DNA of 64,000 nucleotides from NCBI RefSeq assembly GCF_036429475.1, contig NZ_CP144125.1, positions 2,480,001 through 2,544,000 of the forward strand, given 5' to 3'. Below, in pieces: positions 1,354 through 26,544 of the stretch; position 1 is the stretch's first letter, and every line of letters starts with the position of its first letter. A program made the translations under genes and the position numbers. The notes under the pieces were generated by a model. It ran no database searches, was not told the DNA's origin, and saw nothing but the letters and a program-made list of their open reading frames with translations. This DNA is from Halalkalicoccus sp. CGA53. Its GTDB lineage: Archaea > Halobacteriota > Halobacteria > Halobacteriales > Halalkalicoccaceae.

Positions 1354-1456
1354 CCTGGGCCCGCGGCACTCCGGCGCCGGGTCAGGAGCCGCACGTCGCG
1401 TCCGGTTCGTTCAGGGTCGGTAACCGTTTTGCGATCGGAGCGAGTAGCGCGACCGT

Positions 1457-2020
1457 ATGAGCTCCGACACCCGGGTGCGAGGACCGGAGCGAGACGGGGG
1501 GCTTCCACCGAGGGGCGAGGCTCCCGGCCGGAAGACACGGCCCGCCTACACCGACCGACGACAGATCTGGTACGGGATGGGGAAACGAGGCTCGGACGAG
1601 AAGGGGACCGTCGCCCAGCTCCTCCACGACGTCCCCACCCTGTTCGCGGAGGTGTTCGTCCTCGGCTTTCCGGCGATCGCCTACGTCTACGTCGCCGACT
1701 TCGACGGCGGGGCGGGGCTGTCGGGGCCGACGTTCGTCCTCTGGATAACGATGACGGCGGTCGGGACGGCGATCCACGCCGGGCTGGTCCGCCCGCCGTT
1801 CACCGAGTTCCTCGGGTGGGTGACGCTCTCGCCCTCGCTCGTCGTGCTTCGGGTCGTCTACTACAACCTCGTCCTGATTGGCGGGGTCCACGCGAGCGCC
1901 GCGATCGGCTCCCTGGCGGGTGACGGAACGTCCGGGCTGGTCGCGGCCGTAGCGATCGGGACCTTCGCAATGCTCGTGTTCCCCGCGCTCGCCGACGCCG
2001 TCGCGCGGCGGCGCGGGTGA
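1457..2020 (+). CDS. Conserved membrane protein of unknown function
   Basis: The protein has 187 aa. A hydrophilic N-terminal stretch of about 50 residues, rich in Arg and Gly, precedes four hydrophobic segments beginning near VPTLFAEVFVLGFPAIAYVY. An internal ATG (MGKRGSDEKG, about 1577) would remove most of the basic N terminus and could be the true start. No catalytic motif is recognised. It lies between the ZIP transporter and a convergent Tat-exported protein. Confidence 0.6.
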   Translation: MSSDTRVRGPERDGGLPPRGEAPGRKTRPAYTDRRQIWYGMGKRGSDEKGTVAQLLHDVPTLFAEVFVLGFPAIAYVYVADFDGGAGLSGPTFVLWITMTAVGTAIHAGLVRPPFTEFLGWVTLSPSLVVLRVVYYNLVLIGGVHASAAIGSLAGDGTSGLVAAVAIGTFAMLVFPALADAVARRRG

Positions 2021-19049: not shown

Positions 19050-19700
19050 TTACCCCTCTACGTCGCCGTAGCCGCCGATCTCGTAGAGGTACTCCCCTCC
19101 CTCGACCCGATCGAGCAGCTCCGCCTCGGCGTCCAGCTTCTCGCGTGCGCGTTCGAGGACCGACGCCGCCTCGCTCGCGGGGACCACGCACACCCCGTCG
19201 CCGTCGCCCACCACGAGGTCGCCCGGTTCGACGCGTATCCCGCCGCAGGTGACCGGCTCGTCGACCGACCCCTCGAACTCCTTTCCCGGACCGGCGGGGT
19301 GCGTCCCGCGCGCGAAAACCGGGAACCCCATCCGGGCGACCTCCGCACGGTCACGGATCGCCCCGTCGATTACCAGTCCCGCTAGGTCGTGTGCCCGGCA
19401 GGACGCACACATCAGCTCCCCCACGGAGGCCGTCTCGGTGTACCCCTCGCCGTCGACGACCAGCACGTCACCGGGCTCGGCCAGGGTGATCGCCCGGTGG
19501 ATCGCGAGGTTGTCGCCCGGGGCGGCGTTCACGGTCCTCGCACGACCGACGAGTTCGGTACCGGGATCGATCGGTTCGATTCCGGAGTCCATCGCGACCC
19601 CTCGATCGACGACGTCCGAGACGACCGCGCTCGGGACGCCGTCGAACGCGGAGCGTACGTCGGAATCGACGGTCGTCCTCGCGTCGTTCTCGGTGCCCAT
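19050..19700 (-). CDS. RraA-like / HMG-aldolase family protein
   Basis: The 216-aa protein shows ELVGRARTVNAAPGDNLAIH, GDVLVVDGEGYTETASVGEL, GLVIDGAIRDRAEVARMGFP, and EPGDLVVGDGDGVCVVP. This is the pattern of the RraA-like fold that includes HMG/CHA aldolases and RNase E inhibitors. The GAIRDR region holds the usual catalytic Arg/Asp. The in vivo role in archaea is uncertain. The start at MGTENDART is the first ATG compatible with family length. It converges with ipk 1 nt apart. Confidence 0.85.
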   Translation of the reverse strand: MGTENDARTTVDSDVRSAFDGVPSAVVSDVVDRGVAMDSGIEPIDPGTELVGRARTVNAAPGDNLAIHRAITLAEPGDVLVVDGEGYTETASVGELMCASCRAHDLAGLVIDGAIRDRAEVARMGFPVFARGTHPAGPGKEFEGSVDEPVTCGGIRVEPGDLVVGDGDGVCVVPASEAASVLERAREKLDAEAELLDRVEGGEYLYEIGGYGDVEG

Positions 19701-24020: not shown

Positions 24021-25070
24021 ATGACCGCTAACCACCGACGCGCACAGGTCGTGACCGACGCGGTGGCCGAGCGACGCGACCTCGTGAACGCCGCCGTCGA
24101 CGAGGACCTCCCGGTGGCACACCCGGAACGGCTCTACGAGGCTTCGCGCTACCTCCTCGAAGCCGGCGGGAAGCGACTCCGACCGGCGGTCGTCCTGCTG
24201 GTCGGGGAGGCGCTCTGTGACGTCGAACCGCTCTCGGCAGACTACCGACGGTTCCCGGCGCTCTCGGGCGAGGAGGTCGACCTACTGAGCGCGGCCGTCT
24301 CGATCGAGGTGATCCAGTCGTTTACGCTCATCCACGACGACATCATGGACGACGACGACCTCCGACGCGGAGTCCCGGCGGTCCACCGGGAGTACGACCT
24401 CGAGACGGCGATCCTCGCGGGCGATACGCTCTACTCGAAGGCGTTCGAGATCATGCTCGAAACCGGCGCGCCGCCGGAGCGAGCGATCCGGGCGATCGAG
24501 GCGCTCGCGACGACCTGTACGAAGATCTGCGAGGGTCAGGCGCTCGACGTCTCGTTCGAGGGGCGCGAGGACGTCGGCACCGAGGAGTACATGGAGATGA
24601 TCGAACTGAAGACCGCCGTACTGTACGGCGCCGCGGCGAGCGTTCCGGGCATCCTACTGGGCGCCGACGACGAGACGGTCGAGGCGCTCTGTGGCTACGG
24701 CCTCGACGTCGGCCGTGCGTTCCAGATCCAGGACGACGTCCTCGACCTCACCGTCGCGAGCGACCGACTCGGCAAACGGCGCGGGAGCGACCTCGTCGAG
24801 GGCAAGCGGACGCTCATCACGCTCCACGCGCGAGACCGGGGCGTCGACCTGGAGGGGCTGATCGACGCCGGGAGCGTCGAGGCGGTCACGGAGGAGGACA
24901 TCGACCGGGCGGTCGCCGAACTGGAGGCGGCCGGTAGTATCGACTTCGCCCGCGATCGGGCGGCGTCGCTCGTCGAACGGGGGAAGGGGAGACTGGACGT
25001 GCTGCCCGAGAACGAGGCGCGGGCGCTGCTCTGTGATCTGGCGGACTACCTCGTCGAGCGCGGGTACTGA
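24021..25070 (+). CDS. idsA: Short-chain isoprenyl diphosphate synthase (GGPP synthase type)
   Basis: The 349-aa trans-prenyltransferase makes geranyl/farnesyl/geranylgeranyl diphosphate for archaeal ether lipids. The first Asp-rich motif is IHDDIMDDDDLRRG, and the second is FQIQDDVLDLTVASDRLGKR. LEAGGKRLRPAVVLL is the substrate-binding block. It begins immediately after the rnj stop. No glutamyl-tRNA synthetase gene follows, unlike many haloarchaea. Confidence 0.94.
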   Translation: MTANHRRAQVVTDAVAERRDLVNAAVDEDLPVAHPERLYEASRYLLEAGGKRLRPAVVLLVGEALCDVEPLSADYRRFPALSGEEVDLLSAAVSIEVIQSFTLIHDDIMDDDDLRRGVPAVHREYDLETAILAGDTLYSKAFEIMLETGAPPERAIRAIEALATTCTKICEGQALDVSFEGREDVGTEEYMEMIELKTAVLYGAAASVPGILLGADDETVEALCGYGLDVGRAFQIQDDVLDLTVASDRLGKRRGSDLVEGKRTLITLHARDRGVDLEGLIDAGSVEAVTEEDIDRAVAELEAAGSIDFARDRAASLVERGKGRLDVLPENEARALLCDLADYLVERGY

Positions 25071-25136
25071 ACCCTGACGACGCGCCGTCGACTCTCTTCG
25101 TGGGTCCGGGACACCGGTACCGCGTCGAGAAAACGT

Positions 25137-25201
25137 GGTGTGCGGGCCAATACGGCCCGTCACACCGAGGGGAGTTGGGGGTTGGGGTTGGGTGGGTGGG
25201 G
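25137..25201 (+). other. 12-bp hairpin followed by G-quadruplex motif
   Basis: GGTGTG (25137-25142) and CGGGCC (25143-25148) pair with GGCCCG (25154-25159) and CACACC (25161-25166). The loop is AATAC and there is a single bulged T. Two nt later, six runs of three to five G within 33 nt (25169-25201) fit a G4 motif on the plus strand. It lies 67 nt after idsA and could shape transcript ends or act as a small structured RNA. Confidence 0.6.
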
Positions 25202-25768
25202 TTCGATCACACGGTTCGATGCCATCAACGCAGGCGGGGAATTCGCCCGCGTCAGTTACACGCACGCGATACCCTGTAATATGCTTTGTGTGAGTGGAAA
25301 GATTCACGGATCGAACGGTCGGGAGGGGGGTTCCACGCGATACCCGACGGACGGTCGTCCGGCGGCTTTTCCGTGACGCTTTTCGTGACGCATTTGTGTA
25401 AACGGGCAAGATACCGACCGAACGTCCAAAATATCTACAATTACATCCCTCGAATCACCATTGAACGCAAAGCTTTTTACCCGAATACTGATAGAGAGCG
25501 CTGGCGTGCGACGTTCCGCGGTCGGTCGTTGTCAACCATGCCTGGTCACTCGCACGCTCCTGTCACTCTGCCCACGGCGGCCCGATCCGGCTGCCGTCTT
25601 CTCCGCAGCCACCCCCCGACGGGAGTCAACGGCCCGTCTCCCTCGACCCGGGTCTCGAACCCCTGGATCGCTGTAACTGTATGCTCATTAAACGCACAGA
25701 CATACACGTACAGAGATTATTCGATATGGAAGGAAGATTGATAGTGATCGGTGAAGTACCGACGTGCA
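25202..25768. other. Non-coding accessory stretch
   Basis: About 570 nt with lower GC. AT-rich patches near 25425-25490 (including GCTTTTTACCC) and 25680-25740 look promoter-like. Frames here are rich in Ser, Arg and Pro and lack the acidic bias, so none is called. No tRNA is seen, although a GGGTCTCGAACCCC palindrome occurs near 25650. Confidence 0.4.
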
Positions 25769-25891
25769 ATGGCGATAGCCCAACCCACCGACACGTACAG
25801 CTGTCCGAGATGCCACGGGAGACTCACGCCGGTACGCGAGTCGTGGAACTGTGAGGACTGCGGGTTCGCCCCCCGCCACGGCGCGGACTGA
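25769..25891 (+). CDS. Small CPxCG-type zinc-finger protein (40 aa)
   Basis: Reads MAIAQPTDTYSCPRCHGRLT and ends NCEDCGFAPRHGAD. Two CxxC knuckles (CPRC, CEDC) spaced about 14 residues apart make a compact zinc ribbon, typical of the numerous haloarchaeal zinc-finger mini-proteins. It is shorter than common annotation cut-offs. It stands alone in an accessory region. The role is probably protein or nucleic-acid binding, which is inferred. Confidence 0.65.
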   Translation: MAIAQPTDTYSCPRCHGRLTPVRESWNCEDCGFAPRHGAD

Positions 25892-26120
25892 ACCGACCAC
25901 GAGAACCCGAGAGATCCGACCCCGATAGCGGGATCGGAGAGCGGATCGGTCGAGCTGACGATCGTTCAGCGAGACGAAAAGGAGATACGGGTCCGGACGA
26001 ACCCGTCTGCTGCTCGGGGAACCAGTGGCGTTCGGCACGAGTCCCACGGAGTCCCACGAGCGTTCGTATCCATCGACCGGTCGCAACCATGATATACCGC
26101 GACCGATAGTACGATCCGTG

Positions 26121-26444
26121 ATGTACCGACGGAGATACCTTCTCGGGATAGCAGCGACGGCGGCGCTCGCCGGCTGTAGCGACGACGAGCCCGACGGACC
26201 GGACGACGACCCGGAGGACCCCGACGACGGGGACGCCCCCACGGACGACGAGGACGACGCGCTCGACGACGGTGAGGATGCCGTCGACGACGCCGAGGAG
26301 GTCGACGACGACCCCGAAGAAGTCGAGGACGAGGAGACCGGCGAGGGGGAAGAAGAGGACGAGGACGAGGAACCCGCCCACGACGACCTCGAGGACGACG
26401 ACCCCGACGACGAGGAGGAAGAAGAGGAAGACGACACGTACTGA
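26121..26444 (+). CDS. Tat-type lipoprotein with extreme acidic tail
   Basis: The 107-aa protein starts MYRRRYLLGIAATAALAGCS, giving a twin-Arg signal with lipobox LAGC, so it is exported and lipid-anchored. The roughly 88 residues after the cysteine are almost entirely Asp, Glu, Pro and Gly, without a single Lys or Arg. No fold is expected; it may be a disordered surface polyanion. Its stop codon lies inside the left terminal repeat of the adjacent inverted-repeat element, so the original 3' end may have been altered by insertion. Confidence 0.6.
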   Translation: MYRRRYLLGIAATAALAGCSDDEPDGPDDDPEDPDDGDAPTDDEDDALDDGEDAVDDAEEVDDDPEEVEDEETGEGEEEDEDEEPAHDDLEDDDPDDEEEEEEDDTY

Positions 26445-26544
26445 TAGGGATCGTCGTATGAGTTCGTAGTTCTTCGATTTCCGATCGAACGACGTCGGTG
26501 ACACACGTACCCGAGATCGGGTCGGCTACGACGATCCCTACCAG
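26441..26544. mobile_element. MITE-like inverted-repeat element, copy 1 (104 bp)
   Basis: The ends are imperfect 18-bp inverted repeats, CTGATAGGGATCGTCGTA on the left (26441-26458) and its complement with one change on the right (26527-26544). The interior of about 68 bp is alignable to a second copy at 63785-63890. It contains no transposase. The left repeat supplies the TGA (and a TAG) that ends the lipoprotein gene. Confidence 0.65.

Follow-up and report, generated by a model that had tools for sequence, protein, structure and literature searches.

A strong hairpin followed almost at once by a dense series of G-runs, directly past an idsA-like gene, raises the question of what such an element does and on which strand it acts. 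The sequence-only reading of this window (the whole 64-kb stretch of DNA analysed) had offered a transcription terminator, a structured 3' UTR or an sRNA. The sRNA proved the best fit of the three, but with its strand and limits changed: the candidate lies on the minus strand, extends to about 25253 and has a promoter-like box at 25276-25290. Judging from sequence, we consider it likely that the locus encodes two divergently arranged intergenic sRNAs restricted to the genus, here called RNA A and RNA B, and that the hairpin and G-runs are a part of RNA A. What looked like a G-quadruplex or terminator feature thereby becomes a pair of putative small RNA genes open to testing.

The hairpin and its G-runs

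The element itself had been described accurately. The 12-bp stem with one bulge is found at 25137-25166 (GGTGTGCGGGCC-AATAC-GGCCCG(T)CACACC), and the six G-runs in 33 nt, each of at least three Gs, follow 2 nt past the hairpin at 25169-25201; the location is non-coding, the hairpin starting 66 bp past the idsA stop. The folding energy of 25125-25170 is -26.2 kcal/mol (z -5.3), matched by none of 200 shuffles. The claim of a density above expectation has to be divided: it stands for the six runs, as six-run sites occur on average 0.01 times per shuffled window and 25169-25201 is the sole site with more than four G-runs in the 64-kb window, but not for four-run sites, which are not enriched there (3 seen vs 4.0 expected from shuffles). 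Three GGGG runs with loops of 1-5 give 31 overlapping matches in the 4.04-Mb genome. The number six is peculiar to this species; with five and four runs in its relatives, a G-quadruplex motif (at least four runs of at least three Gs, loops 1-7) is nevertheless present in all three.

A conserved, putative transcription unit on the minus strand

Our comparison within the genus comprised three genomes, this one (G000) and two relatives (G001 and G002); two of the three assemblies are incomplete (61% and 70% complete). The sequence-only reading had made its case depend in part on conservation in relatives, and the element is indeed present in both other genus genomes compared; among 39 other relatives searched for DNA similarity, these two alone gave matches. 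The intergenic region from idsA to a downstream microprotein gene is 698, 804 and 662 bp long in the three species, and its alignment contains two conserved blocks, A (about 25133-25305) and B (about 25424-25605), the rest having diverged. Block A, about 175 bp in length, is 81-88% identical to G002 and G001, while the stretch between the blocks is 47-54% and that after B 52-55% identical; as a yardstick, the fourfold sites of idsA are 68-71% identical. The region 25137-25201 is merely the 3' part, about half to two-thirds, of a longer conserved element predicted on the minus strand:

24021-25070, plus strand: idsA-like gene (NCBIfam: geranylfarnesyl diphosphate synthase; isoprenyl diphosphate synthase), convergent with RNA A
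25276-25290, minus strand: A box, BRE/TATA-like CACAAAGCATATTAC, 22 nt before helix 1 in all three species; conserved upstream to about 25305
25129-25253, minus strand: RNA A, predicted noncoding RNA of about 121-125 nt (5' end about 25253, 3' end about 25129), from conservation in all three genus genomes and the minus-strand fold z-score
25227-25253, minus strand: helix 1 of RNA A, 10 bp, with a variable loop sequence
25205-25226, minus strand: helix 2 of RNA A, 7 bp, weak in G002
25167-25204, minus strand: C-rich unpaired linker of RNA A, the G-run motif of the plus strand, with 6, 5 and 4 C-runs of at least three
25137-25166, minus strand: helix 3 of RNA A, 12 bp with one bulge, the hairpin described above; predicted terminator stem
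25129-25133, minus strand: TTTTC after helix 3 (TTTTA in G001, TTCCG in G002)

Read on the minus strand, block A thus runs from a promoter-like box through a 22-nt spacer, two stem-loops, the C-rich linker and the hairpin to a T-run. The strands differ in how well they fold: the z-scores of the three species are -4.93, -3.77 and -2.31 on the minus strand vs -1.89, -1.21 and +0.39 on the plus strand, and a 29-pair structure retains 29, 28 and 26 pairs on the former and 25, 23 and 23 on the latter, a difference due mainly to G-U pairs that turn into C-A mismatches on the plus strand. Only on the minus strand does helix 3 keep its full 12 bp and one bulge, the position of which shifts, in all three species; the plus-strand hairpin, complete in this species, loses pairs in G001 and G002, and its energies in the relatives are -14.9 and -16.2 kcal/mol vs -18.8 and -20.1 kcal/mol on the minus strand. 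Among the three sequences, no base pair has changed on both sides in a compensatory way, so classical covariation support is absent, and a pair-shuffle control on the helices carries no information, there being too few changes among three sequences. With frames read by eye, a 5-nt indel between species breaks the frame of RNA A; a short ATG frame seen in the minus-strand linker was rejected as it is not kept between species.

These comparisons fit poorly with a plus-strand terminator or structured 3' UTR of idsA, to which we now assign very little probability. The element does sit just after idsA, in this species the plus strand can form the whole hairpin, and one hairpin terminator reported from Haloferax volcanii stopped 59% of transcripts (PMC7237163, as far as that account goes). 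However, a G-run stretch and no T-run lies past the hairpin on the plus strand, the plus-strand hairpin is the weaker one in both relatives, and the distance from the idsA stop to the block varies between species, the intervening 3' flank being only 38-55% identical; a terminator scan of 24500-26500 returned no plus-strand terminator-like site. On the minus strand, the hairpin with its TTTTC suits a terminator, and helix 3 would then end RNA A. In H. volcanii, a T-stretch ending at C is given as the main intergenic terminator signal, and with the haloarchaeal T-stretch and hairpin terminators of that account (PMC7237163) the present one shares a hairpin followed by TTTTC; it differs in lying inside a conserved putative transcription unit rather than at a stand-alone gene end, and in its weak tail in G002. 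The minus-strand sequence past helix 3 is ACGTTTTC in G000, CCCTTTTA in G001 and ACTTCCGC in G002, the last not a clean T-run.

A second alternative places the function in the DNA: a G-quadruplex on the plus strand, the template of RNA A, would pause polymerase or replication, the hairpin being incidental or cooperating. We regard this as unlikely. The retention of 6, 5 and 4 runs of at least three Gs despite a change in length (the C-run core measures 33, 28 and 24 nt) and the rarity of more than four runs in shuffled windows are in its favor, and with archaeal G-quadruplex motifs, as far as they are described in PMC12873603 and PMC7565180, the predicted motif shares at least four runs of at least three Gs and short loops. 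Yet RNA A is least conserved in its G-run part, which has a pairwise identity of 81-85% and 4-9 gapped columns; helix 3 reaches 90-93% and the remainder 85-92%, and the promoter region, separated from the RNA by a spacer of 68-82%, 87-97%. A quadruplex leaves the conservation of the promoter box and helices 1-3, far beyond the G-runs, unexplained, and in contrast to the published motifs, an RNA on the opposite strand accounts better for the conservation seen across the entire block. Within the linker, the G-quadruplex and C-run readings are inseparable by sequence; a quadruplex is possible, no result here requires one, and it is because of the remainder of the block that we favor the RNA. Before a G-rich motif in a GC-rich genome is called a quadruplex, it should be established which strand keeps its helices in related genomes.

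Predicted RNA B and the paired promoter-like boxes

Block B resembles block A in its layout and runs in the opposite direction:

25466-25480, plus strand: B box, BRE/TATA-like CGCAAAGCTTTTTAC, 22 nt before the RNA B helix in all three species; conserved upstream to about 25424
25503-25605, plus strand: RNA B, predicted noncoding RNA, from its identity and folding
25503-25558, plus strand: 5' stem-loop of RNA B, from the fold
25574-25597, plus strand: terminator-like hairpin of RNA B, from the fold
25769-25891, plus strand: gene of a 40-aa CxxC...CxxC zinc-finger-like microprotein, downstream of RNA B, in all three genus genomes

RNA B is the better conserved of the two, with 94-96% pairwise identity in the three species; its upstream part is 81-86%, the promoter 80-93% and the spacer 59-82% identical. 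Its frames, again read by eye, are broken by 1- and 2-nt indels between species, so that neither A nor B has a conserved reading frame; each candidate has a conserved BRE/TATA-like box in all three species, apparently a promoter of its own. The A and B boxes differ at 3 of 15 positions, and box and first helix are 22 nt apart in six of six cases although the spacer sequences vary; this fixed spacing makes transcription likely to start at the helix. Haloarchaeal promoter elements have been described, as far as PMC4983044 states, as CGAAA (BRE) and TTWT (TATA).

A joint pattern of the two boxes, with at most one mismatch, occurs at three sites in the genome and its reversed control at none; as the pattern was written from sites A and B themselves, the information lies only in how few further sites there are. 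The third site (L182, about 1376-1516, minus strand) precedes the start of an S-layer-like gene by about 125 nt; the product of this gene has a surface-glycoprotein signal peptide scoring above the curated cut-off and a partial match to S-layer glycoprotein that falls far short of its cut-off. Searched alone with three mismatches, the A box has 13 genome sites vs 20 for the control, and the B box is no outlier by that measure; the resemblance of the boxes therefore rests mainly on position and spacing. The likeness of the box to one at an S-layer-type gene suggests that transcription of A and B would perhaps be strong.

The features of a putative transcription unit also bear on a third alternative, that the blocks are conserved protein-binding or replication-related DNA without an RNA product. 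Almost no variation is seen on the loop side of helix 3 or in the flanking GAGGGGAGTTGGGG, as one would expect of DNA-binding sites, but the strand asymmetry of the fold z-scores and the constant 22-nt promoter spacing are characteristic of transcription units, and we give this explanation almost no credence. The sRNA pair finds its support in comparisons of sequence: conservation in three genus genomes, helices kept on the minus strand, similar boxes at a fixed spacing and the lack of a conserved frame. We infer from these that both RNAs are transcribed. RNA A would start near 25253, about 22-23 nt past its BRE/TATA box, and run leftward along the minus strand in convergent orientation to idsA; the transcript would pass two stem-loops and a C-rich single-stranded linker and reach the terminator-type hairpin and short T-run near 25129. 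RNA B (about 25503-25605) would leave the same intergenic region in the opposite direction from its similar box.

Distribution and possible role

Both RNAs appear restricted to the genus. At the gathering threshold, Rfam 15 matched only tRNAs in the window and neither RNA, and at permissive E-values the best sub-threshold match in the region scored 17 bits vs 37.8, giving no credible family. A tRNA-Ala (cgc) called by ARAGORN at 19508-19595 is absent from the Rfam tRNA model matches and is possibly a false call. Covariance models of A (R1) and B (R2) had strong matches only in G000, G001 and G002 among 392 Halobacteriales genomes (137.6-153.7 bits for A, 132.9-142.3 bits for B); outside the genus, the best scores were 29.0 bits (R1) and 26.1 bits (R2) and none exceeded 30, in scans with strict filters able to lose weak matches. 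At E-values of at most 0.1 per genome, R1 had weak matches in 70 further genomes and R2 in 18, and among the best 17 weak loci of each, 16 (R1) and 15 (R2) lay inside open frames of at least 200 codons; we set these matches aside as background. With laxer settings, an R1 scan of 40 relatives added two weak matches outside the genus and left the picture unchanged. Plasmids (by blastn) and viral contigs (by exact patterns) held no relative of either block, and the haloarchaeal sRNA and archaeal G-quadruplex literature surveyed, a partial coverage, contains no description of the element.

Among known systems, the nearest are the intergenic sRNAs of H. volcanii (sRNA132, s479 and rancRNA_s194; PMC6560208, PMC8155600 and PMC6104027), and we assign RNA A provisionally to that kind. 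To the extent that these sources describe them, they are, like the predicted RNAs A and B, short and intergenic, with their own promoter-like box and without a conserved reading frame. Unlike them, A and B form a divergent pair with similar boxes and, in A, a C-rich linker, and they have no sequence or covariance relative outside the genus in the 392 Halobacteriales genomes. If transcribed, genus-specific sRNAs with an unusual C-run linker would join the poorly understood haloarchaeal sRNA repertoire.

The linker is unpaired and rich in C-runs in all three species while its length changes, which makes it the likely contact surface; RNA A would act as an sRNA, the exposed C-runs binding a protein or a G-rich RNA. 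A bolder and decidedly tentative proposal is that A and B are founders of two new noncoding RNA families in one divergent co-expressed unit, with a BRE/TATA variant found otherwise only at an S-layer-type gene in this genome, and the linker a length-tolerant platform for a protein or G-rich RNA. Complementarity gave no target: genome sites complementary to a 14-nt invariant piece of the linker are not in excess (38 vs 41 in the control), all of 100 shuffles of RNA A paired at least as well with 16S rRNA, and 18 of 100 matched its pairing with RNA B, indicating no special complementarity. Separately, a resemblance of the hairpin to the part of bacterial 16S around GCCCGTCACACC was considered and rejected, the 16S of this genome having GCCCGTCAAAGC at that place.

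The surroundings of the blocks differ from those of related loci. In six Halalkalicoccus-side loci, a gene read by eye as gltX closely follows idsA and neither block is found; since idsA has a different, closely spaced neighbor there, the region seems genus-specific. In this genus, the place after idsA (25071-25768) holds the two RNA blocks and then the microprotein instead of a gltX-like gene. The microprotein is 80-83% identical in the two relatives and has a weak, sub-threshold Pfam match to DUF7129. Further downstream, an Asp/Glu-rich ORF at 26025-26444 has a lipobox-like N-terminus (Pfam LPAM_1, below cut-off).
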